Source: a virus. From it: DNA of 24,677 bases. The notes beneath the pieces were generated by a model that ran no database searches, was not told where the DNA came from, and worked only from the letters and a program-made list of their open reading frames with translations. The stretch is taken from the IMG/VR virus record IMGVR_UViG_3300030108_000545, positions 1 through 24,677 of that record. The stretch is one strand, 5' to 3'. The translations under genes and the position numbers were made by a program. Below, one piece after another: positions 717 through 21,819 of this stretch (its first letter is position 1; each line of letters starts with the position of its first letter).

Positions 717-1853
717 TTATTGTACTTGTCCATAACCACCAAGAGCTAGGGAAGTTCCTACTCCTTGTAAGAATGGATTAGGACTTTGTTGATAACCTTG
801 TGTGTATGTATTTATATTACCTGCTGATGGACTTCCTTTTACAAATTGCTGTCCTATAGATAAAGGCATTAAAGCACTCTTGAGTGGGTTCATTTGATTG
901 GCTCTATCAGCATCTAATATAGCTTGATTATAACCTTGTCTACTTGTGCCCGCAGAGTACATAGCATTCATATCAGCAGCTGTTAGTCCACCATATCCTC
1001 TACCTAATCCACCCATCATACCACCTAGACCACCAAAGTTTGATCCAATACCACTAGCAACACCACCAAGTCCACCTACGCCTGTAGCTATGCCACCAAG
1101 ACCCTGACCTAATCCACCAGCTAATCTTCCACCTTCTAAGTTTCTTCTTTTACCTTCTTCAAAAGCCTTCATAGAAGATCCTAATGCACTTTGATAACCT
1201 TGAGACAACATCTTATTTAAAACGTCACCTCTTCTTTCAGCTTGTCTATCTTGTAATTCACCTTGATTTAATCTAGATCGACTACCACCAAAAGCTCCAG
1301 ATGCAATAGCACCTGCTTGTGCTTTATTTTGTTCTTGTAAATCCCGTTCATCTAATCTTTCCATAGCAGCATCTATAACTTTTTCTTGATAAGGATTCAT
1401 AAACGCATCTACTTGAGAAGATGGATCAAAAGACCCTACGCCTTGTTGTAAAAATTGTGCTCCCTGATCAAAATAATCACCAGTTTGATCATATATATCT
1501 TGAGCTGCCCCTAAATATCCTAATCCACTTTTTAAAGATTCAGCACCCGCTTTACCATATTGACCACCTGCTTCAAAGAAAGGTTTAAACCTATCCATAT
1601 ACTCTTGAGAACCAAGGGTATCAAACACTTTTTGTTGCAAAGGATCAATGCCTGCAATTTTTTGATCTGGTACCTTAAATAAATATTTATCACTTGTAGG
1701 ATCGGCATATTCACCAGAAAGTAACCCTGCAGTACCAAATCCAGTAAAATTACCATCTTCATCATATTGAGAGTCAAATAAAGAGTCCAAGACTCCTTTT
1801 TCCATATCCTCTATATAAGGTGCTTTTCTTTGTATTGTTTCTACTGTTGACAT
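717..1853 (-). CDS. Gly-rich putative ejection / internal virion protein (378 aa)
   Basis: The 378-residue protein has an acidic N-terminal half. The middle (residues about 165-230) is built like many phage ejection proteins, with AGAIASGAFGGSRSRLNQGE followed by a helical stretch ending LSQGYQSALG. A long Gly-rich tail (GLGQGLGGIATGVGGLGG and similar, residues about 245-295) follows. It has no signal peptide or catalytic motif. The ATG at 1853 overlaps the upstream stop as TAATG, so translation is probably coupled. In podoviruses, proteins with such 'AFGGSRS...GYQ.A' segments are often annotated as internal virion or DNA-injection proteins. I base the call on that resemblance and on position; a homologue search could overturn the function but not the gene. 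Confidence 0.65.
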   Translation of the reverse strand: MSTVETIQRKAPYIEDMEKGVLDSLFDSQYDEDGNFTGFGTAGLLSGEYADPTSDKYLFKVPDQKIAGIDPLQQKVFDTLGSQEYMDRFKPFFEAGGQYGKAGAESLKSGLGYLGAAQDIYDQTGDYFDQGAQFLQQGVGSFDPSSQVDAFMNPYQEKVIDAAMERLDERDLQEQNKAQAGAIASGAFGGSRSRLNQGELQDRQAERRGDVLNKMLSQGYQSALGSSMKAFEEGKRRNLEGGRLAGGLGQGLGGIATGVGGLGGVASGIGSNFGGLGGMMGGLGRGYGGLTAADMNAMYSAGTSRQGYNQAILDADRANQMNPLKSALMPLSIGQQFVKGSPSAGNINTYTQGYQQSPNPFLQGVGTSLALGGYGQVQ

Positions 1854-2904: not shown

Positions 2905-3201
2905 TTATGTAATCGTTACAGTTACAGTTCCTACAGCAGTTGTTCCTACATTTGTTGCTACATGAGGAGTGTTCAATTCAACTATCTTAACAAACCCACC
3001 ATGATTAAATAAACCACCAACTTCTAACCCTTGATCATTTTTTTGTAAATTAGTCATTACAAAAGTAGATGCCCTACCCTCTCCCGGATTTTGTATTTGA
3101 TCTAAATAAACAGCAAAATTACGAACTAAGGTTGCAAAATACTGTTGTTCATACTGATTTGGTGGTATGGGAAAAAATGGTAATACTAAGTTTCTAGACA
3201 T
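2905..3201 (-). CDS. Conserved small phage protein of unknown function (98 aa)
   Basis: The ATG at 3201 overlaps the stop of the large hub-like gene as TAATG, which points to coupled translation. The 98-residue product begins MSRNLVLPFFPIPPNQYEQQ and has a Pro-rich start, a helical segment (YFATLVRNFAVYLDQIQNPG) and a C-terminal beta-like Val/Thr run (GTTAVGTVTVTIT). I have the impression of similar proteins immediately after the gp10-like gene in marine phages, but I know of no function. The C-terminal strand pattern and position suggest a small virion protein attached to the tail hub. That is inference. Confidence 0.6.
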   Translation of the reverse strand: MSRNLVLPFFPIPPNQYEQQYFATLVRNFAVYLDQIQNPGEGRASTFVMTNLQKNDQGLEVGGLFNHGGFVKIVELNTPHVATNVGTTAVGTVTVTIT

Positions 3202-5111
3202 TATCTTCTTCCATCTGGTCTAATATCTACTCTTGGAGATCCTAAACGCCAAGTAACTCCAACTGTAGATGATTCTACTCTTAAAGCAAAACTTCTCCCT
3301 CTAAGTCTTACTCTAGCATCTTCTGTAAATTGTTCTACAGGAACAGTAGCTGATTTAACTACAGAAGATGACTCTGTATTTAAATAGTTACCTCCCGGTG
3401 CATTTCTAGTTTTTAATGTTAAAGTAGCAGTAGAATTGTCAATAGAATCTCTAAATGTTAAATCAGGTATTATTCTTGTAATAAAGCTAAATTGATTTCC
3501 ATCACCTATGTCCATTTGACTTGATTCAATATGTGCATTGATTGCAGTAACTGGACTTGTACTTCCATCATCATTACCAATCTCGTGATTATAAAGGTAG
3601 CCATCTGTGCTTGCAGCGATTGGGTACTCCCCAACACCACGATCCATCCAAGCTGTTCTGGCTAAAGAACCTACATACCATATTCTTTGTTCATAATTAT
3701 AAATTACATATCTATCTATTTCATTTGAGCTAGAAGAGGGGTAAAACCACCAAACTTCTGAATACCCACCATTAGATGATGCAAACACTTTTTGAGCTTG
3801 ACCTTTGTTAAAATCACTAAATACAAAATCTTTTACAGAACAAGGTATTTTTTGCACAGAACCAGAAAAGATATAAAACTCATTAATACCCATCCAAAAT
3901 ACAGTATCTTCAATAGCAATAGTAGACATTGGACTACGTATAGATATATTTTCTGAAATCAAATTAATACTGAATGTAAAAGGCGGCCCGATAAATTGCA
4001 TGGTATATATAGAAACGTCTGTAAAAACTAGTATTTGTTGTCTTGTTTCTACAGCACAAACAATTTCTGAACCAGAACCAAGCCTTAATTCACCTGCAGT
4101 ATTTGTAATTAATGATTCCCAATCAGTTAAGGATTCTTGACTAGAAAACCTTATAACCAAAGGATCTTGTGTTCCAATATTATCTTCTGGGTCACAACCA
4201 AAAGCTATAATATGACGATCTCTATCAGATACTAATACTTGTGTTGCTATTGTGGGTGCCTTAGAAGAACCAGCTAAACTGTCTAATTTAACTGCCCTTG
4301 AAGTTAAGCCACTCGTTCTATCCCAATAATAAATACCATCATTTCTAACATTAATTAATAAATCTTCTCCAAAATTATCATGTGTCCATAATCTTAACAC
4401 ACCCTCAATAGTTAAACTAGCTCCACTACCCCAAGATAATCTACCCCAAGTACCAGCTCCCCAACCATTTCCTCCAACTCCAGTATCAAGACCACCACTG
4501 ATTTGATAAGCTCCTACAGTAGAACCTCCCCCATTACCTGTGTCAGAAGAATTAGCGTTAACTTGTGTAGGTGTGTAAGTTCCATCAACTGTTATTTGAG
4601 ACAATGTTGCAACTTCTCTAGCCAAAATGGTATAATTGCTCGTATCTACAACGCTTGCGATTTCATACTCTTGATTTAAAATTGCAGCTGTAATATTACC
4701 ACCTAATGAAACAGCACCACTAAAAGTAACAAAATCTCCAACAAAAGCTCCATGATTAGCTTCTGTAACAGTTATAGTAGAGGATCCATTAGTGGCTGAA
4801 AATGTAACGTCACCTGCAGAAGTTGTTAACCTTATAGGGGTAATATCAGAATAAGCTTCGCCTTGCTCAATATAATATTTTCTATGAGTTCCAATACCGA
4901 TAAATTGGTCTAATGCTAAAGTTTGCCAAGCATGTAAAGCTCTAGCCGATCCTAAAAAAGAATTGCCACCTTTTTTTATCCAACCACCTATTTTTTCTGG
5001 ATAACCTGTTCTAAATCTTACTTTATCACAATCAAACCAACCTCCTTCATTAGAATAAGAAGTAGCTTCTTTGTTAATGCCCGGTCTAAATTGTAATTTT
5101 GTTAATGGCAT
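3201..5111 (-). CDS. Tail hub / DNA-stabilisation protein, P22 gp10-like (636 aa)
   Basis: This is the largest protein of the window. An ATG at 5111 overlaps the upstream stop as TGATG; a TTG one codon earlier is less likely. It opens PLTKLQFRPGINKEATSYSN followed by EGGWFDCDKVRFRTGYPEKI, an opening I associate with marine-phage proteins annotated as packaged-DNA stabilisation protein. The body is rich in beta strands with repeated Trp/Gly turns (WGAGTWGRLSWGSG, residues about 218-232), consistent with the beta-propeller hub of P22 gp10 or T7 gp12. An inserted Ser/Thr-rich beta domain lies around residues 100-200. In P22, gp10 sits between the gp4 adaptor and the needle and closes the DNA exit channel. 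A gp4-like gene occurs in the same window. Family call moderate, structural role fairly sure. Confidence 0.65.
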   Translation of the reverse strand: MPLTKLQFRPGINKEATSYSNEGGWFDCDKVRFRTGYPEKIGGWIKKGGNSFLGSARALHAWQTLALDQFIGIGTHRKYYIEQGEAYSDITPIRLTTSAGDVTFSATNGSSTITVTEANHGAFVGDFVTFSGAVSLGGNITAAILNQEYEIASVVDTSNYTILAREVATLSQITVDGTYTPTQVNANSSDTGNGGGSTVGAYQISGGLDTGVGGNGWGAGTWGRLSWGSGASLTIEGVLRLWTHDNFGEDLLINVRNDGIYYWDRTSGLTSRAVKLDSLAGSSKAPTIATQVLVSDRDRHIIAFGCDPEDNIGTQDPLVIRFSSQESLTDWESLITNTAGELRLGSGSEIVCAVETRQQILVFTDVSIYTMQFIGPPFTFSINLISENISIRSPMSTIAIEDTVFWMGINEFYIFSGSVQKIPCSVKDFVFSDFNKGQAQKVFASSNGGYSEVWWFYPSSSSNEIDRYVIYNYEQRIWYVGSLARTAWMDRGVGEYPIAASTDGYLYNHEIGNDDGSTSPVTAINAHIESSQMDIGDGNQFSFITRIIPDLTFRDSIDNSTATLTLKTRNAPGGNYLNTESSSVVKSATVPVEQFTEDARVRLRGRSFALRVESSTVGVTWRLGSPRVDIRPDGRR

Positions 5112-5953
5112 CAATGTTTCTTTCTATTTTCAAGTTTTTTTGTATTGGTTAAAGATTGTTTGTCTAATAAAGTAAAACCTCTACGATTTGCAAATATTTC
5201 TGGATCTTTTTCCCATTTATCTGCACAAGCTTCTAACCAACGCATTGTCATTTCGTGAGTAGGTGCTTTACCTTCTTTCATTAATTCATTCTCTGTATTA
5301 AGATACGCAAAAACTTCAGCCTGTGCTTGAGCACCACTAATACCTAAATCAAAGATATAAATCATATTACCTTCATCTATAATCCCACCTCTAGGTCTAG
5401 CACTAGTAAGAGCTTGTTTCATAGCTGTCATAATATGGTATCTGTTTTCTTCTCTTTCATACATTTCTTCTGTAATTTCATCTACACCTAAATGTTTTAA
5501 TAAAGAATTATATTGATTTATAAAAAAGTTTAGTTTTCTAATAGCACCTTGTACAGAATTTTGTGCATTAACTGAATGTGTTTGTATTTCTAGTATTTCT
5601 ATTTCTAGCATCTCTCTCTGCAAATCATCTTGACACTCTAACAATTCACGTTGTTTCATTTTAAGTTCAACAGATTTTTTTTGCATACGTATCTGTGCTT
5701 CTTGTAAAGCATTTTTTGTTTTATCTACTTCTGCCAAAGTATGCTTGATTGAACGTATAGGTGTTATGGCAGTAACATCTAGTGTTACACCCATAAATTG
5801 AGAATGCGATTTATAAAAGTTACTAGATGCCTGTTGCACCATAGGCATATTTTTATCTATGTTCTTTAACATAGTTTTATACTCTGGCTTTACTTCGGAT
5901 AAAGCTGTCTGTATATTTTTTATAACAAGTTCAGTTTTCAAATTATCCACCAT
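5111..5953 (-). CDS. Coiled-coil phage protein, unknown function (280 aa)
   Basis: The 280-residue protein starts at an ATG (5953) that overlaps the end of the upstream gene by 11 nt. Residues about 75-150 are a strong predicted coiled coil (KTKNALQEAQIRMQKKSVEL, then repeated Glu/Gln/Leu heptads). The C-terminal third looks globular, with an aromatic-rich helix-strand pattern (HEMTMRWLEACADKWEKDPE) and a short 'RPRGGIIDEGN' loop. No catalytic motif is seen. It lies directly before the tail-hub gene and shares a stop/start with it, so a tail-assembly or virion role is likely. It could be a tail-needle-like trimeric fibre or an assembly factor. I cannot choose. Confidence 0.6.
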   Translation of the reverse strand: MVDNLKTELVIKNIQTALSEVKPEYKTMLKNIDKNMPMVQQASSNFYKSHSQFMGVTLDVTAITPIRSIKHTLAEVDKTKNALQEAQIRMQKKSVELKMKQRELLECQDDLQREMLEIEILEIQTHSVNAQNSVQGAIRKLNFFINQYNSLLKHLGVDEITEEMYEREENRYHIMTAMKQALTSARPRGGIIDEGNMIYIFDLGISGAQAQAEVFAYLNTENELMKEGKAPTHEMTMRWLEACADKWEKDPEIFANRRGFTLLDKQSLTNTKKLENRKKH

Positions 5954-6284
5954 TTAATGCTGTTAAATCATTCCATATTATTGTAGCAGCTGTTGCAGGC
6001 ACAAAATCTTCCTCAGTGCCATCTGCTTTCATTTGCTTCCAACCATTACCATCACTTACACTTGTAAGGTAGGTTATTAAAGCATCTTTACTTGCTATCT
6101 CACCTTCAGAACCAGATATATCAGCTCCATCATCTGCAATACCAAGCATTACATGATCCCTTGGACTTGCTGTGCTATCTTTAACAGGATACATACCTCC
6201 TGTTCCTTGAGGTACACCAAATTTAAGAAAAGTTGGTATTGTACCCTCTGCTGTTAATCTATATTTTACTACTTTATAAGCCAT
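5943..6284 (-). CDS. Small conserved phage structural-type protein (113 aa)
   Basis: An ATG at 6284 with AAGGAG upstream starts a 113-residue soluble protein beginning MAYKVVKYRLTAEGTIPTFL. It is beta-rich, with a 'GVPQGTGGMYPVKD' loop and a C-terminal 'WNDLTALNGG'. There is no membrane segment or known motif. It sits between the propeller array and the coiled-coil/hub genes, which makes a virion accessory protein the natural guess. Function unknown. Confidence 0.6.
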   Translation of the reverse strand: MAYKVVKYRLTAEGTIPTFLKFGVPQGTGGMYPVKDSTASPRDHVMLGIADDGADISGSEGEIASKDALITYLTSVSDGNGWKQMKADGTEEDFVPATAATIIWNDLTALNGG

Positions 6285-6299
6285 ATTATCTCCTTAAAA

Positions 6300-7361
6300 T
6301 TAACTTATTCCACCATGTGAGCCACAAAGACCTAAAGGTCCTGCTCCTCTAGCTACCGATAAATCTCCAAAATCTGTTGCATTGCCAGTACTACCTATAG
6401 TTATGTATTCAATGACATTTAGATTACCTCCAGAATAACCACCTGCAAAAACACCTCTAGTTGAATTGCTTGTTCCTCTATGACCAGTTTTAGTTGCAGT
6501 AAGGTCACCAAAATCTGTAGCGTTACCAGTGGATGATATGGTCACATAATCTATAACATTAGAACCTGAACCTGATGCATCACCACCACTAGTTAAACCT
6601 CTGGTATTACTTGAACACCCTGCTACCAAGTATCTTGTCTGGGTATTATCACCAAAGTCAGTAGCATTACCAGTGGATGCTATAGTTACATAGTCCATAA
6701 CATTTGTATATCCAGTCGTATAACCACAACTAAATACACCTCTAGTTGGAGAAGAGAATGCTGTTTTACCAGAAGATGCTTGGGTGTTGTCCCCAAAATC
6801 TGTACCATTACCTGTACTCGCAATAGTAAAATAATCAATTGGACTTAATGCTCCACCTACACCAACACCATAAGCTCCATTAGAATATAATGCTCTAGTG
6901 CTACTACCACAAGCACCACCATATCTTGAACCTGAAATAAGGTCACCAAAGTCTTGAGCATCTCCTAGTGAGCCAATACTAACATAACTTACTTGATTAC
7001 TATTAGTTGATTCATACCATGAGCTTCCACCTATAAATAAACCTCTAGTAGTGGATGCTGTAGCACCCCCATTACTAACAGGCTGAACTAAATCACCAAA
7101 ATCTGAAGCATTACCTGTTGATGATACATCAATATAATCAATACTTCTAAGGTCATCAAAGGTTGATATTGCTCCACCACCTGCAAATAAGGCTCTATTA
7201 ACAGGAAAAGCATTACCTACTGTAGGCCAAATACTTTGTTTATTTAACATTAATTGTTCGTGTAAATTAAAAACTCCATTACCCGAAGTGTTTTCGTATT
7301 CATTAGTGGGTCTAATAGTGCTTTCTTCAAAATTAATTAAATTGCCTAAAAATTTGGTCAT
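6300..7361 (-). CDS. Kelch-like six-bladed propeller protein, paralogue 3 (353 aa)
   Basis: After about 55 unique N-terminal residues, the protein is six tandem units of about 45-50 residues. Each unit follows the plan S-x-T-R-G-[LV]-F-x-G-G, a variable loop, then [ND]-x-I-[DE]-Y-[IV]-T-I-x-S-T-G-N-A-T-D-F-G-D-L. I count six FGD signatures: NASDFGDL, DAQDFGDL, NGTDFGDN, NATDFGDN, NATDFGDL, NATDFGDL. The protein ends in a short partial strand (LCGSHGGIS), which could close a ring with the N-terminal NRALFAGGG strand. Blade size and paired-glycine pattern fit kelch-type beta-propellers. The ATG overlaps the stop of paralogue 2 as TAATG. An exposed tail or capsid adhesin is likely; no enzymatic residues were recognised. 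Confidence 0.75.
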   Translation of the reverse strand: MTKFLGNLINFEESTIRPTNEYENTSGNGVFNLHEQLMLNKQSIWPTVGNAFPVNRALFAGGGAISTFDDLRSIDYIDVSSTGNASDFGDLVQPVSNGGATASTTRGLFIGGSSWYESTNSNQVSYVSIGSLGDAQDFGDLISGSRYGGACGSSTRALYSNGAYGVGVGGALSPIDYFTIASTGNGTDFGDNTQASSGKTAFSSPTRGVFSCGYTTGYTNVMDYVTIASTGNATDFGDNTQTRYLVAGCSSNTRGLTSGGDASGSGSNVIDYVTISSTGNATDFGDLTATKTGHRGTSNSTRGVFAGGYSGGNLNVIEYITIGSTGNATDFGDLSVARGAGPLGLCGSHGGIS

Positions 7362-8356
7362 TAGGCTAATCCTCCATGAGTAGAAGATAAAGCTGCTCCA
7401 TTATAAGAACTTGAACTTAAATCTCCCCAATCAGAACCTGATCCACTTGTGCTCATTGTAAAAATATCAACAGAATTTAAGTTGGTTGTTGATGCACTTT
7501 GTGTACCATCATTTCCTACAATAGACAAACCTTTTGTTTTGTTGCCAGATTGAGCATTAAATCTTCTAGCATTTAAATCACCAAAATCTTGAGCATTGCC
7601 TGTTGAAGCTATAGTAATATATTGAACCTCTGCTATACCATCACTACCTGCTGTATTTTTACCATTACAAACATATCCGTATGTTCCAGAAGAAGTTATT
7701 CCTACACCACCATAATAAACTGCTGTATTAAGATCTCCAAAATCGGTAGCATTTCCTGTAGAGGCTATTGTAATATAATCCATAAAATTAGAAATACCAC
7801 CACTAATTTCTCCACCCATAAAAACACCTCTTGTTGTATTACAAGTGCTAAATAACGCATAACTAGATACGTTTGTGTTACCAAAATCAGCTGTGTTGCC
7901 AGTAGAGGCTATAGTAACATATTCCATAGTATCAACATAAGAACCCGGATAACCAATTTTAAAAACTGCTCTTGTAGAATTTGAAACTGCTCTACCACCA
8001 GTATCACCTGCCGATAAATTGCCAAAATCAGTGGCATTACCGGCTGATGCCATAGTAATATAATCAATAACATTAGAATATGGACTACCATCAAACCCAC
8101 CACTAAATAGACCTCTTGTAGAAGATGATGATGCACCCAAATCATATCTTGCAACAGTTAAATCACCAAAATCTGAAGATCTTCCTAGCGTGGAAATAGA
8201 TAACATATTTATTGTATTTAAATAAGAAAAAGTGTGTGTTGCAGCCTCTGCATGAAAAACTGCATCACTTGAAGAAATTGGTGCTAAAGGCCAATTATTA
8301 CCTTTAACAGCTACACCTTGTTCTGCTAAACTCCAAAATCCAGAATAATTAGGCAT
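7361..8356 (-). CDS. Kelch-like six-bladed propeller protein, paralogue 2 (331 aa)
   Basis: The N-terminal 30 or so residues are unique (MPNYSGFWSLAEQGVAVKGN). Six blade units then follow, with signatures RSSDFGDL, NATDFGNL, NTADFGNT, NATDFGDL, NAQDFGDL and GSDWGDL. The last unit is the most diverged (Trp replaces Phe). As in paralogue 3, the protein ends with an incomplete strand (SSTHGGLA) that may pair with the first blade. The ATG at 8356 follows a 20-nt gap after paralogue 1; the stop overlaps the next start. No signal peptide or transmembrane segment is seen, so it is probably a virion-mounted binding protein. The copy number of six matches both neighbours and argues for selection on a closed ring rather than random repeat drift. 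Confidence 0.75.
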   Translation of the reverse strand: MPNYSGFWSLAEQGVAVKGNNWPLAPISSSDAVFHAEAATHTFSYLNTINMLSISTLGRSSDFGDLTVARYDLGASSSSTRGLFSGGFDGSPYSNVIDYITMASAGNATDFGNLSAGDTGGRAVSNSTRAVFKIGYPGSYVDTMEYVTIASTGNTADFGNTNVSSYALFSTCNTTRGVFMGGEISGGISNFMDYITIASTGNATDFGDLNTAVYYGGVGITSSGTYGYVCNGKNTAGSDGIAEVQYITIASTGNAQDFGDLNARRFNAQSGNKTKGLSIVGNDGTQSASTTNLNSVDIFTMSTSGSGSDWGDLSSSSYNGAALSSTHGGLA

Positions 8357-8376
8357 TGTAATATTTTTCCTTTAAA

Positions 8377-9627
8377 TTATTGTTGAGATGCCACTGAGCT
8401 TGCTGTTCCTGCCAATTGATTTATTCCTGCATAAGAACCTACTGTTAACAAATCTCCAAAATCGGTAGCATTTCCTGTTGATCCAATTGTAATATAATCT
8501 ATAGTATTTTCTCTACTACTACTACTATTTATACCACCTGCAAAACACCCCCTAGTAGAACTAGATACCCCACCTGCTAATTCTTCTCTAGCTACTGTTA
8601 AATCTCCAAAATCGGTAGCATTTCCTGTAGAGGCTATTGTAACATAGTCCATAGTATTAATTCTTGAACCATCATCCCCACCACCAAAAACCAATCTTGT
8701 AGCACTTGCAACAGCTGCAAGAGAATGTCTCGCGACTGTAAGATCCCCAAAATCTGTAGCATTACCTGTAGAGGCTATTGTAAAATATTCAATTGTATCT
8801 TTTTTAGTATGACTACCTGTTTCTGTACCACCACCTACAACTGCACGTGTAGTACTAGAACCTGCTGCTAAAAGCCTTCTTGCAGCACTTAAATTACCAA
8901 AGTCTGCAGCATTTCCAGTTGAAGCTATTGTAACATATTCTACAACATTTACGTGTTCAGCAGCAGCAGTACCACCTCCAATTGAACAAAGACCTCTTGT
9001 GCTATTTGAAGTTCCTCCTATTTTATCAGTTGCTGTTGTAAGATCCCCAAAGTCAGTAGCATTGCCAGTAGTAGAAAAAGTAATATAATTTATAACATTT
9101 GACTTGCCTGAACCATCATCCCCACCTGCAAAAACACCTCTAGTACTACTACCACAAGCTGAACCAGCTCTTTTATTAGCTGTAAGATCTCCAAAGTCAG
9201 TAGCATTGCCAGTAGATGAAATATCAATATATTGAATTACATTTATTCTATCTGAACCATCTACTGTGCCACTTATCTCACCACCCGAAAAAATACCTCT
9301 AGGTGAAGCAGGACTTGAAGAACTAGCATCACTGTAAGGACTTGCACCAAAGGCATTGTTTGCTAAACCTGTAACAGAATAGCTTGTACCATTGCTTAAT
9401 CCTGTAATAACAACAGGACTTGATGCACTTGTTGCTCCTGTAGATACACCACTTGCAATAGCTGTTGCTGTATAAGAAGTAATAGCACCACCACCAACAT
9501 CTGATGGATTAGTAAAGGCAACACTAACTTGTTCGCTGCCTGCTGTTACACTTATTGTAGGTGCATCTGGTGCTCTTAATTGGTCAAAGCCACCTAAGGC
9601 TCCTCCTTTTGGTTTGTTCTTACCCAT
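8377..9627 (-). CDS. FN3-domain plus six-bladed kelch-like propeller protein, paralogue 1 (416 aa)
   Basis: A short basic N-terminus (MGKNKPKGGALGG) leads into a fibronectin type III/Ig-like domain at residues about 19-108 (APDAPTISVTAGSEQVSVAF ... ITGLSNGTSYSV ... NNAFGASPYSD). The last 300 residues hold six blade units with FGD/FGN signatures and RGxFAGG-like strands. FN3 domains on phage virions usually act as surface-binding modules, and beta-propellers are general ligand-binding platforms. The combination suggests a host-surface or polysaccharide adhesin. The ATG at 9627 starts 9 nt after the stop of the 138-residue gene. Function inferred; architecture seen directly. Confidence 0.75.
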   Translation of the reverse strand: MGKNKPKGGALGGFDQLRAPDAPTISVTAGSEQVSVAFTNPSDVGGGAITSYTATAIASGVSTGATSASSPVVITGLSNGTSYSVTGLANNAFGASPYSDASSSSPASPRGIFSGGEISGTVDGSDRINVIQYIDISSTGNATDFGDLTANKRAGSACGSSTRGVFAGGDDGSGKSNVINYITFSTTGNATDFGDLTTATDKIGGTSNSTRGLCSIGGGTAAAEHVNVVEYVTIASTGNAADFGNLSAARRLLAAGSSTTRAVVGGGTETGSHTKKDTIEYFTIASTGNATDFGDLTVARHSLAAVASATRLVFGGGDDGSRINTMDYVTIASTGNATDFGDLTVAREELAGGVSSSTRGCFAGGINSSSSRENTIDYITIGSTGNATDFGDLLTVGSYAGINQLAGTASSVASQQ

Positions 9628-9636
9628 TGACTACCC

Positions 9637-10053
9637 TTACGCATCATCCATGACTTCGTAACTAACAAACAAATCTAAATCACTTGCAGCACTTGCTCCA
9701 CCTTTTAAAATATCACCTTCCATTAGATAAATGGGTGTGTCTAAAATAACAAGAGTGCTATCCGCAGGAACAGAAACAGTTTTAGCTAAATATATAGTAG
9801 TTCCCGCAGGGGCTGCTCCAGAACCATCTGTTACAGTAATTCCTGTTGTTCCTCCACCATTTGCCATACCATCTACAAATAAATCCAAGGTAGCAGCATT
9901 AGTGCCATCTACATTTGCACAGATTATATTGTTAATTTTTAGTAATTTATCACTAGCAACAGTTATTAAGGTGGCTGTAGCTGTAGCTGATAAGTTAAAT
10001 CCTGCATTACCTGCAAGAATACTTGTGACATTTATAATATTGGGATTTGCCAT
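9637..10053 (-). CDS. Beta-rich putative virion protein (138 aa)
   Basis: An ATG at 10053 (MANPNIINVTSILAGNAGFN) with AGGAG about 8 nt upstream starts a 138-residue, Ala/Thr/Val-rich, cysteine-poor protein of alternating strands. The pattern (SATATATLITVASDKLLKIN, DSTLVILDTPIYLMEGDIL) resembles a small jelly-roll such as decoration or fibre-tip proteins, and it has no membrane or catalytic features. It stands between two families of fibre-like genes. A virion surface accessory protein is likely. The specific role is unknown. Confidence 0.55.
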   Translation of the reverse strand: MANPNIINVTSILAGNAGFNLSATATATLITVASDKLLKINNIICANVDGTNAATLDLFVDGMANGGGTTGITVTDGSGAAPAGTTIYLAKTVSVPADSTLVILDTPIYLMEGDILKGGASAASDLDLFVSYEVMDDA

Positions 10054-11416: not shown

Positions 11417-11704
11417 TTAACTTGGTTTTGTCGGCCACGTTGGGTTATCTACATCACCAGAGGTTATATCCCTCAAGGCTTGTCTATATGTACGCCAACT
11501 TGAAGCATCTCCACTTGCATCTTCTATTTTATGAATTTGCCAATCGGCTTCTTCTAAAAGTTCTTTTCTTTTATTTCTTAATCTTTGTTTTTTTCTTTCA
11601 GTAGCACCATTCGCCCATTCCTGTTGCAAAGCATTATATTCTGCAACTTCTTCGTCAGTTAATTTAATTCTATCTGCACCAACTTTTTTATAAAGATCTA
11701 CCAT
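11417..11704 (-). CDS. Tail (fibre) assembly chaperone-like protein (95 aa)
   Basis: The 95-residue protein begins MVDLYKKVGADRIKLTDEEV. It has a charged helical middle (residues 20-50) and the C-terminal pattern DWQIHKIEDASGD, W-x-T-Y-R-Q-A-L-R-D-I, and a final WPTKP. This W.xYRQALRD...WPxKP ending is characteristic of phage tail assembly chaperones of the Phage_tail_APC type, normally encoded beside tail fibre genes, as here. The ATG at 11704 starts 8 nt after the stop of the 344-residue fibre-like gene. I expect it to help fold or attach that fibre or the propeller proteins. Family call is from the motif; the partner is inferred. Confidence 0.7.
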   Translation of the reverse strand: MVDLYKKVGADRIKLTDEEVAEYNALQQEWANGATERKKQRLRNKRKELLEEADWQIHKIEDASGDASSWRTYRQALRDITSGDVDNPTWPTKPS

Positions 11705-13212: not shown

Positions 13213-13509
13213 TTATAATCTCCTTATTAATTCAGCTAGTTCAGGATGACCTGCATCCTTTATTGCATTATAAATTGTTGTTCTATCACTATTAATAGCT
13301 TCTTTCATATATGATGCAATTACTTTTTCCATATTTTTTGCATAAGCAATAGCTTGATCCCTTAAAACAGGATCAACATTATCCGATATGGAAATTATTC
13401 TTTTAACACATAATTCTGAAATTTCTTCAGGTGTAAATCCTCTATTATTTGTGGTTCTTACCTCAACGACTGGTTTATCTTTCGGTAAATCCATTTTTAA
13501 AGTAAACAT
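13213..13509 (-). CDS. Small helical phage protein, unknown function (98 aa)
   Basis: The 98-residue soluble protein's ATG at 13509 overlaps the previous stop as TAATG. A conserved-looking helical core reads FTPEEISELCVKRIISISDN, then DPVLRDQAIAYAKNMEKVIA and SDRTTIYNAIKDAGHPELAE, ending LIRRL. It has no membrane segment or DNA-binding signature I can name. The all-helical small fold between a connector-like gene and virion genes could be a chaperone or connector subunit. I do not recognise the function. Its final codons contain the ribosome-binding site of the next gene. Confidence 0.6.
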   Translation of the reverse strand: MFTLKMDLPKDKPVVEVRTTNNRGFTPEEISELCVKRIISISDNVDPVLRDQAIAYAKNMEKVIASYMKEAINSDRTTIYNAIKDAGHPELAELIRRL

Positions 13510-14168
13510 TATTGTTTCTGCCTTATTATTTTACCTGTTCTATATTCGTCTGAAACTTCTTTAGCTTCTCCTAATAATTTAACACCTGCTAAAGATTCTT
13601 GAAATTTTTGATTATACATAGTCATTACATCTTGCTCACCTTTCATAAAGGTATAAGCTTCTACTAAAGCACCATATAGTAAAGCTATTTCGGCATTTTG
13701 ACTTAACCAAGTTGTTCCAGAATCTGAACCCGCTGTTAAACTTTCAGGTCTATAAAAATAATGTAATTCGCCTGTATAACTTGCGTCTGGAGTAGGTGCT
13801 ATTAAAAAGTTACTAACATCATAAATAGCATAATATTTAGGTCTACCTGTACCTGTAGATTGAGGATTAAAAGTTTGCAAAAAACTTGGATCTTTAAAAT
13901 CAACAAATTCCTTTGTAGGACTTGAATCTGAAGTTAAAGCAAAACTTAATGAAAAAGGAGCCAAAAAATCAGAAGGGCAAGCAAAAAACTGACTGTTAAC
14001 TGAAATGTTAGCACTTGCATTTTTTCTAAATAAACTCAATTGTACACTTTTTAATATACGTTCTTCTGAAATTCTAATAAACATTGGAATGTTATTTACA
14101 AAAGTAGTTTCGTTATTTTCTGTATAATCTTGTACAGCAGTTTTAAGTTGTAAATAAGTAAAACTCAT
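13509..14168 (-). CDS. Head-tail connector / adaptor-like protein (219 aa)
   Basis: I start this gene at the ATG at 14168, which overlaps the previous stop as ATGA; the frame extends 14 codons further but only into the upstream gene. The protein begins MSFTYLQLKTAVQDYTENNE and contains ISEERILKSVQLSLFRKNAS, CPSDFLAPFSLSFA, a central beta section and a final helix (NAEIALLYGALVEAYTFMKG ... EDVMTMYNQKFQESL-like). It resembles proteins annotated as phage adaptor or connector in marine podoviruses. Together with the gp4-like gene it would form the neck between portal and tail hub. The exact ring position is not determinable here. Confidence 0.6.
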   Translation of the reverse strand: MSFTYLQLKTAVQDYTENNETTFVNNIPMFIRISEERILKSVQLSLFRKNASANISVNSQFFACPSDFLAPFSLSFALTSDSSPTKEFVDFKDPSFLQTFNPQSTGTGRPKYYAIYDVSNFLIAPTPDASYTGELHYFYRPESLTAGSDSGTTWLSQNAEIALLYGALVEAYTFMKGEQDVMTMYNQKFQESLAGVKLLGEAKEVSDEYRTGKIIRQKQ

Positions 14169-14500
14169 GGTGTATTTGCTTGACCTCCCATGCCACTGTG
14201 ATTTGAACAATAATAATATAATGTTGGAGCACCACCTGCAACAGTTATTTGAGTTGTGTAAGCACTATCATCTTTGACTACGCCAGTAGTGTACTCGCTA
14301 CCACTATTATGTGTACCATCTGATGTTGTTGAAAATCTAAAAGGATGAGAAGTAGCAGCAGACCAATCAAAAAGATAGATACTTCCCTCTGACAAACTTA
14401 AGGTAGGTTGTCTTACTCCATCTATATAATATTTATTGGCACCAAGATAACTTGCAACTGTTACTATGTATCTAGTTACATTTGAGGTAATACTTATAGA
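14165..14500 (-). other. Cupredoxin-like domain coding segment
   Basis: This part of the gene encodes residues about 130-240, holding the candidate metal ligands H181, C227, H230 and M233. Domain limits are estimated by eye from the strand pattern. Confidence 0.5.
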
Positions 14501-21182: not shown

Positions 21183-21629
21183 TTATACATACGAAATATC
21201 GGTGGGGTCAAGTATTTTCGCAATAACATTATCGTCATTTATAATACGAACTTCAAGATTTTCCACTTTAAACCTATTTCCTGCATATCTTCCCATAATA
21301 ATCCAGTCTTTTTCTTTACACCATGCTCCATCTGGAAATCTTCCCACATCTTTATATGCAGAAGCTCCTAACTTTACAACATAAGCAGCGACAGTAGCAA
21401 AGCTCTCTCTATCCCTTGTTGCATCAGGAACATAAACACCACCCTTTGTTTGGGTTTTCATGTAGTATGGAATGACTAGTATTCTATAGCCAGTAGGTTG
21501 AGGTAATCTTTCTAAAGCTGATTTCTCCATTTTAGAAGGATCATCTGAATTTTTGTTCTCCTCAATTTTAAAAACATTTTTTGGAGGTTTTGGTACCATT
21601 CTGTCTGGAACGTATAATTTTTTATTCAT
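21183..21629 (-). CDS. groES: GroES-like co-chaperonin (148 aa)
   Basis: I use the ATG at 21629; a TTG two codons earlier is also in frame. Residues 1-38 are a charged extension. From residue about 42 the chaperonin-10 fold is recognisable: LPQPTGYRILVIPYYMKTQT, then a mobile loop KGGVYVPDATRDRESFA (62-78) whose GGVYV matches the GGI-type GroEL-binding tripeptide region, then VAAYVVKLGASAYKD, WCKEKDWIIMGRYAGNRFKV and a final NDDNVIAKILDPTDISYV. At 148 residues it is longer than GroES (about 97), closer to other phage versions. It should cap the host GroEL, replacing GroES to fold capsid protein as T4 gp31 does. Its place two genes before the capsid gene agrees. The fold call is strong; the substrate is inferred. 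Confidence 0.82.
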   Translation of the reverse strand: MNKKLYVPDRMVPKPPKNVFKIEENKNSDDPSKMEKSALERLPQPTGYRILVIPYYMKTQTKGGVYVPDATRDRESFATVAAYVVKLGASAYKDVGRFPDGAWCKEKDWIIMGRYAGNRFKVENLEVRIINDDNVIAKILDPTDISYV

Positions 21630-21819
21630 TTTCAAGCTCTATGCCTTTCATCGCGGCTATAATTAAATCTTCTACATAGGTCATGCCACGTACTTGACCA
21701 ACTGTAAACCGATAGTTTTCTATCGTATCTATCGAACCATTCACCAAAGATTCTGCAAAATCTTTCTTTCTTTGGCGTATGTCTTTAAGCAGATATTCTG
21801 CTAAAACTATTGAATCCAT
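21622..21819 (-). CDS. Small helical phage protein, unknown function (65 aa)
   Basis: An ATG at 21819, only 2 nt after the endolysin stop, starts a 65-residue, acidic, all-helical protein (MDSIVLAEYLLKDIRQRKKD, then VGQVRGMTYVEDLIIAAMKG and IELENE). Its last codons overlap the start of the co-chaperonin gene by 8 nt. I associate a similar small protein with marine phage head operons but know no function. It could be an assembly factor. Confidence 0.55.
   Translation of the reverse strand: MDSIVLAEYLLKDIRQRKKDFAESLVNGSIDTIENYRFTVGQVRGMTYVEDLIIAAMKGIELENE

Follow-up and report, generated by a model that had tools for sequence, protein, structure and literature searches.

The presence of three adjacent paralogues, each holding six kelch-like units, in the fiber region of a viral genome raises the question of what such proteins do for the virus and why each of them should hold six units. 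We addressed this question computationally in the window, by which we mean the whole 24.7-kb stretch of a virus record that was analyzed. Our reading is that the three genes probably encode virion adhesins, each made of an anchor and a closed six-bladed kelch-fold head, and that together they form a three-slot platform with interchangeable rings. All of the genes discussed lie on the minus strand, and the features are as follows.

8377..9627, minus strand: P0003, slot 1, an N-terminal segment, an FN3 domain and a six-bladed ring, 416 aa (AlphaFold2 model, Foldseek).
9319..9567, minus strand: FN3 domain of P0003, residues 21-103 (Pfam PF00041, E=1.9e-4; PHROG 6977).
8380..9306, minus strand: ring of P0003, residues 108-416 (AlphaFold2 model, Foldseek, unit profile).
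7361..8356, minus strand: P0002, slot 2, a short W-anchor and a six-bladed ring, 331 aa (AlphaFold2 model, Foldseek).
8288..8341, minus strand: anchor peptide of P0002, GFWSLAEQGVAVKGNNWP, residues 6-23, with a helix at 10-18 in the model (AlphaFold2 model, anchor survey).
7364..8269, minus strand: ring of P0002, residues 30-331, with a degenerate first blade and the closing tail SSTHGGLA (unit profile, model).
6300..7361, minus strand: P0001, slot 3, a longer anchor and a probable six-bladed ring, 353 aa (unit profile; ring by likeness to the paralogues).
7224..7277, minus strand: anchor peptide of P0001, GVFNLHEQLMLNKQSIWP, residues 29-46 (sequence, anchor survey).
6303..7196, minus strand: ring of P0001, residues 56-353, with the closing tail LCGSHGGIS (unit profile).
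9637..10053, minus strand: 138-aa protein that borders the adhesin bay on its upstream side in 85 related loci.
5943..6284, minus strand: 113-aa protein directly downstream of the rings, present in 54 related loci.
5111..5953, minus strand: 280-aa protein, the downstream border in 75 related loci, which served as an independent bait.
11417..11704, minus strand: tail-fiber assembly protein family (PHROG 4912, E=7.5e-15).
13509-14210, minus strand: adaptor-like gene.
3201-5114, minus strand: virion structural protein, followed by an ejection-type protein at 717-1853, minus strand.

The three paralogues are flanked by fiber and adaptor genes on one side and by virion structural and ejection-type genes on the other, and the PHROG 4912 family member places the locus in the tail-fiber module. 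A position in the tail or fiber module is one mark of an adhesin gene, and it was evident here from the fiber-assembly, adaptor-like and ejection-type neighbors and from the conservation of the bay, whose 138-aa border protein has homologues in HTVC033P, DSL-LC04 and S-SKS1. The major capsid protein of the window is 72% identical to its counterparts in DSL-LC04 and Pelagibacter phage HTVC023P, and the DSL-LC04 annotation includes a Pam1-type adaptor. Elsewhere in the window, the gene at 21183-21635 in the head module is a probable GroES co-chaperonin by synteny with the annotated GroES genes of HTVC023P and DSL-LC04, and the C-terminal part of the product of 14165-14887 matches the baseplate wedge/fiber connector PHROG 677 (E=5e-13), an unusual match beside short-tail adaptor genes.

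The earlier note had counted six units of about 45 to 50 residues in each gene, 18 in all. This count held when we scored the proteins with a unit profile built from the units of relatives, excluding the window's own (E=4e-8 to 1e-25), and successive units were spaced 47 to 52 aa apart. Whole-protein scores were 315, 245 and 354 bits for P0001, P0002 and P0003, the best of 599 shuffled controls reached 11.1 bits, and the weakest units (P0002 blade 1, 20.5 bits; P0002 blade 6, 19.6 bits) were still far above chance. Two details of the unit description needed correction, in that the conserved aromatic residue before GD is mostly F (97%) and that blade 1 of every ring gene in the window lacks strand a, which is provided by the C-terminus. 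The partial C-terminal strands reported previously, LCGSHGGIS and SSTHGGLA, are present, and SNxHGGL-like tails end many relatives. The FN3 domain proposed for one gene lies in P0003, where the Pfam score of 22 bits falls below the gathering cutoff of 25; we regard it as real because fn3 also matches six of the aligned sequences (best E=7.1e-9), and residues 12-105 also match the minor tail protein family PHROG 6977 (E=9e-10). Searches of annotated phages with tblastn gave no match for P0003 and only S-SKS1 (E=0.8) for P0001, and the low-complexity filter is possibly to blame in both cases.

AlphaFold2 models made with a 37-sequence alignment for P0003 (pLDDT 86.1, pTM 0.78) and P0002 (pLDDT 81.7, pTM 0.82) are closed six-bladed kelch-fold propellers, as the unit count had led the earlier note to expect. 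Kelch propellers ranked first in a Foldseek search of the PDB with P0003 (KLHL12, 6v7o; E=1.4e-17, TM 0.89 by target length), and P0002 likewise matched human KLHL12 (E=3e-19, TM 0.88). Keap1 was also among the structural matches, and the rings agree with the kelch architecture of six or seven four-stranded blades in a closed circle. P0001 probably forms a six-bladed ring as well, judging from its paralogues. A typical blade of P0003 has strands a to d at residues 156-159, 163-167, 175-183 and 191-201 by DSSP, and the suggested pairing of the C-terminal strand with the first blade is seen in the P0002 model, in which the tail (residues 321-324) supplies strand a of blade 1. The di-glycine that ends strand b in kelch propellers is also present, given that positions 18 and 19 are glycine in 83% and 94% of 921 units. 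In kelch repeats, closely spaced conserved Tyr and Trp residues follow the di-glycine; in the phage units, Tyr at position 30 (87%) is followed 12 residues on by Phe at position 42 (97%). The Pfam kelch models did not match P0001, P0002 or P0003 and matched one of 37 relatives (E=0.61), so these proteins have the kelch fold and are not members of the Pfam kelch family; "kelch-like" is thus appropriate for the structure and not for the sequence. Sequence searches of the PDB returned no propeller with the alignment profile and KLHL12 at just E=0.05 to 0.07 with P0003 alone.

We considered whether the number of blades is fixed among relatives. Among 250 distinct complete ORFs from approximately 110 related loci, 197 have six blades and 31 have twelve. 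The remaining 22 comprise halves of split genes, genes with six blades and a piece of the closing strand, and rings that lost a degenerate blade, in most cases blade 1, to the score threshold. Given that this set was found with a six-bladed query, we gathered a second through the neighboring 280-aa gene, which gave 99 six-bladed and 15 twelve-bladed ORFs out of 131, the remainder being explained in the same way; some contigs are common to both sets. Ring genes were present in all 48 complete bays of the second set and usually filled three gene slots. The number of blades per gene is therefore not freely variable, whichever way the relatives were selected, and it stays at 6 or 12 even though the identity between rings has dropped to a floor of about 50%. 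Twelve-bladed genes consist of two rings, with a linker such as AAAVQPTPTSA following the closing strand of the first. In one comparison, L022 and L034 have flanks that are 99.7% and 99.5% identical, and L022 has an additional ~904 nt that amount to a whole second ring. A separate locus (L052:3863-8776) combines one six-blade gene with two twelve-blade genes, and their rings are 70 to 79% identical to each other, apparently through recent copying inside one genome. Blades at the same position are 0.537 identical, blades at different positions 0.521 and blades within a ring 0.536; with almost no positional memory, a six-blade ancestor could not be traced. That positional memory is nearly nil in all ring loci, yet the blade number per ring is fixed, is an observation in its own right.

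In several unrelated sequences, one ring is spread over two adjacent ORFs, and the halves total six (or twelve) blades. The split point is always the b-c loop of blade 3 (L047:5705-6715, L036:7242-8288, L076, L126, L139, L159 and L045:5370-6377) or blade 4 (L193 and L135; for a twelve-blade gene, L022, L032, L034 and L035), right after Gly-Gly, and the stop and start codons overlap or stand close together. In most of these splits, a Shine-Dalgarno-like stretch formed by the Gly-Gly codons themselves (GGGGG, GGAGG) precedes the new start by a few to about a dozen bases. L036, with ~30 nt separating its halves, seems to rely on a different site. Sequencing error was rejected as an explanation because the breaks recur at the same loop in unrelated sequences with overlapping or adjacent stop and start codons. 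In the isolated cyanophage S-SKS1 (201.8-208.0 kb; L123:5800-12008), divergent blades are distributed over several ORFs, for example 3 and then 9 units, partly unannotated, and these are possibly split or decayed rings.

The relationship between anchor and ring is modular, with a constant anchor and an exchangeable variable head, as would be expected of an adhesin. We compared 70 gene pairs of equal blade number with anchors at least 85% identical, and the rings were just 40 to 60% identical, the background for unrelated rings, in 45 pairs and more than 95% identical in 16. The reverse case also occurs, with rings at 93 to 95% identity on anchors that are 44% and 8% identical: L062 and L105 have rings that are 95% identical on anchors 8% identical in different slots, and L044 and L054 have rings that are 93% identical in slot 1 and slot 2, respectively. 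L044 corresponds to the slot-1 anchor of L054 joined to the slot-2 ring of L054. At the DNA level, the breakpoint between L025 and L096 falls at the anchor/ring junction, positions 1-348 matching one gene and 346-1223 the next. The close relative L011 is 91% identical to the window across 6 kb beside the rings, and its slot-3 anchor carries a P0003-type ring.

The anchors are shared not only among rings. In the collected loci, the head that follows the GVWxL...WP peptide is a ring in 129 ORFs and something else in 17. A scan of ten from the latter group showed Gly_rich_2 in four, DUF7483 in five (one case with laminin-G and one with F5/8C) and no match in one. Isolates show the same pattern: downstream of the homologue of the 138-aa border protein, Gly_rich_2 heads occur in both DSL-LC04 and HTVC033P, and laminin-G heads in DSL-LC04. 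We considered that the rings could instead decorate the virion or serve as structural spacers, their ligands being environmental glycans or other parts of the particle and not an infection receptor. Many virions are decorated by multi-copy beta domains, an anchor of this kind could dock anywhere on the particle, and three copies per genome exceed the need of one receptor. However, slot exchange with lectin-type and poly-glycine heads, a position in the tail-fiber module and variation on one face are more in keeping with recognition than with an unchanging structural function, and we regard decoration as unlikely. The receptor-binding role of gp38, the poly-glycine adhesin of T2/S16-type phages, is proven, and gp38 adhesins of the T2 type carry variable loops on a poly-glycine frame and bind host porins (PMC12892980). 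By analogy, an anchor common to the rings and to known adhesin-type heads is our main reason for considering the rings to be adhesins; together with the position of the locus, it suggests that the rings bind the host, and the co-occurrence of anchor and head suggests that the anchor serves in docking.

The face on which the rings vary is consistent with the adhesin reading. Across 38 ring pairs at 70 to 97% identity, 40% of residues differ in the b-c loop and 44% in the d-a loop, compared to 14% in the a-b turn, 16% in the c-d turn, 4 to 12% in strands b, c and d and an intermediate 26% in strand a. The b-c and d-a loops are assigned to one face because of the strand order of an antiparallel four-stranded blade, and the predicted concentration of loop variation on one face was thus borne out. 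The proposal that loops change while the frame stays fixed stands insofar as the loops vary most, but loop substitutions account for less of the variation than does the exchange of whole rings from slot to slot. Diversification by a retroelement (DGR) was considered separately and is unsupported, given that we found no RVT_1 reverse transcriptase in the window or in 19 related records, some of them fragments. Galactose oxidase is an enzyme with the kelch fold. Several phage propellers are endosialidases (PMC4901313), and on these grounds the rings could degrade or modify polysaccharide on the host surface, as a lyase or a kelch enzyme akin to galactose oxidase would. We find this improbable, given that the b-c and d-a loops, the likely place for a propeller active site, show the least conservation (about 2.9 to 3.9 bits of entropy), and an invariant catalytic residue was not apparent in them. 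Effectors that bind host proteins inside the cell, in the manner of poxvirus kelch proteins, would share the fold of kelch substrate adaptors, but the genes lie inside the structural module, between adaptor/fiber and ejection genes, and their anchors are common to rings and lectin-like heads, which makes such a role very improbable. Hardly credible is a repetitive fiber without ring closure, such as an open beta-solenoid with six repeats by chance, which would suit tandem repeats of ~48 aa in a fiber region and was already disfavored by models at TM 0.88 to 0.89 to closed kelch rings, the 6-or-12 quantization and the conserved closing tail.

Under the adhesin reading, the ring closes at blade 1, three strands of which (b, c and d) come from the N-terminus and the fourth (a) from the C-terminal tail, often SNxHGGL. 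The anchor, which contains FN3 in slot 1 and is a short GVWxL...WP peptide in the other two slots, would dock the head on the tail or fiber apparatus of the virion, so that three different heads could each present a variable side to the host. Most strands and the a-b and c-d turns are fixed, and the varying b-c and d-a loops on the other face would touch the host surface. Diversity arises mainly when entire rings recombine from slot to slot or from phage to phage, with the cut at the anchor/ring junction, and also through the gain or loss of one complete ring (6 versus 12 blades). The head would be replaced as a closed unit because another blade number would not close the same way. We propose more tentatively, and with some doubt, that this three-slot locus typifies a widespread group of aquatic phages in which the ring is the unit of recombination, moved whole between slots and phages, doubled or lost in sixes, interchangeable with unrelated adhesin folds on a shared docking peptide and splittable into two chains at one loop with six blades kept.

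Collectively, our findings give the apparent host-recognition proteins of uncultured aquatic phages, whose genes mostly carry a "hypothetical" annotation, a fold, a putative docking peptide and a unit of exchange, and the locus looks like a plug-in system for recognizing changing bacterial surfaces. If the anchor peptide marks adhesins generally, heads could be found in metagenomes and host specificity tested by expression of rings. The strict 6-or-12 rule and the split rings that sum to six also represent a natural experiment on how ring closure limits the evolution of repeats.

An open-license literature search found no account of the locus or its anchor, nor of exchanged or split rings, while kelch-type phage propellers, as annotated in PMC5259590, and the five-bladed receptor-binding head of phi11 (PMC4901313) were already known. 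The nearest sequence relatives are PHROG 19111 (E=1.5e-12) and proteins of Synechococcus phage S-SKS1 in which units were detected, although these carry no functional annotation and the S-SKS1 blades are divergent and distributed over several ORFs. Like the kelch propellers of KLHL12 and Keap1 (PDB 6v7o, 2vpj and 1zgk), the phage rings have six four-stranded blades with a di-glycine after strand b, and N- and C-terminal strands that join to close the ring; they differ in being only ~15% identical, in having Phe for the kelch Trp and in having short anchors in place of BTB/BACK domains. The kelch-annotated phage proteins CBB_550/552/554 of vB_PcaM_CBB (PMC5259590), BcepSaruman A0A4D5ZBY9 and those of PhiPA3 are kelch-type propellers and structural matches, and CBB_552 was found in the virion. 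These are from jumbo or myo-type phages and are 11 to 21% identical to the rings, and the excerpted accounts of them do not describe an anchor-sharing three-slot locus or ring swapping. The gp38 adhesins of T2/S16/PP01-type phages resemble the rings in placing variable loops on a fixed frame at the tail-fiber tip, and Gly-rich heads that may be comparable use the same slots and anchors as the rings; gp38 differs in its unrelated fold and in being a single adhesin at the fiber tip and not one of three slots (PMC12892980). Gp45 of the Staphylococcus aureus phage phi11, a five-bladed propeller receptor-binding protein with a putative GlcNAc cavity, also represents a propeller used as a receptor-binding platform on a phage tail (PMC4901313). 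It has five blades of another propeller family and is encoded by one gene as a homotrimer with stem and tower (PMC4901313), whereas the rings described here are six-bladed and occupy three slots.
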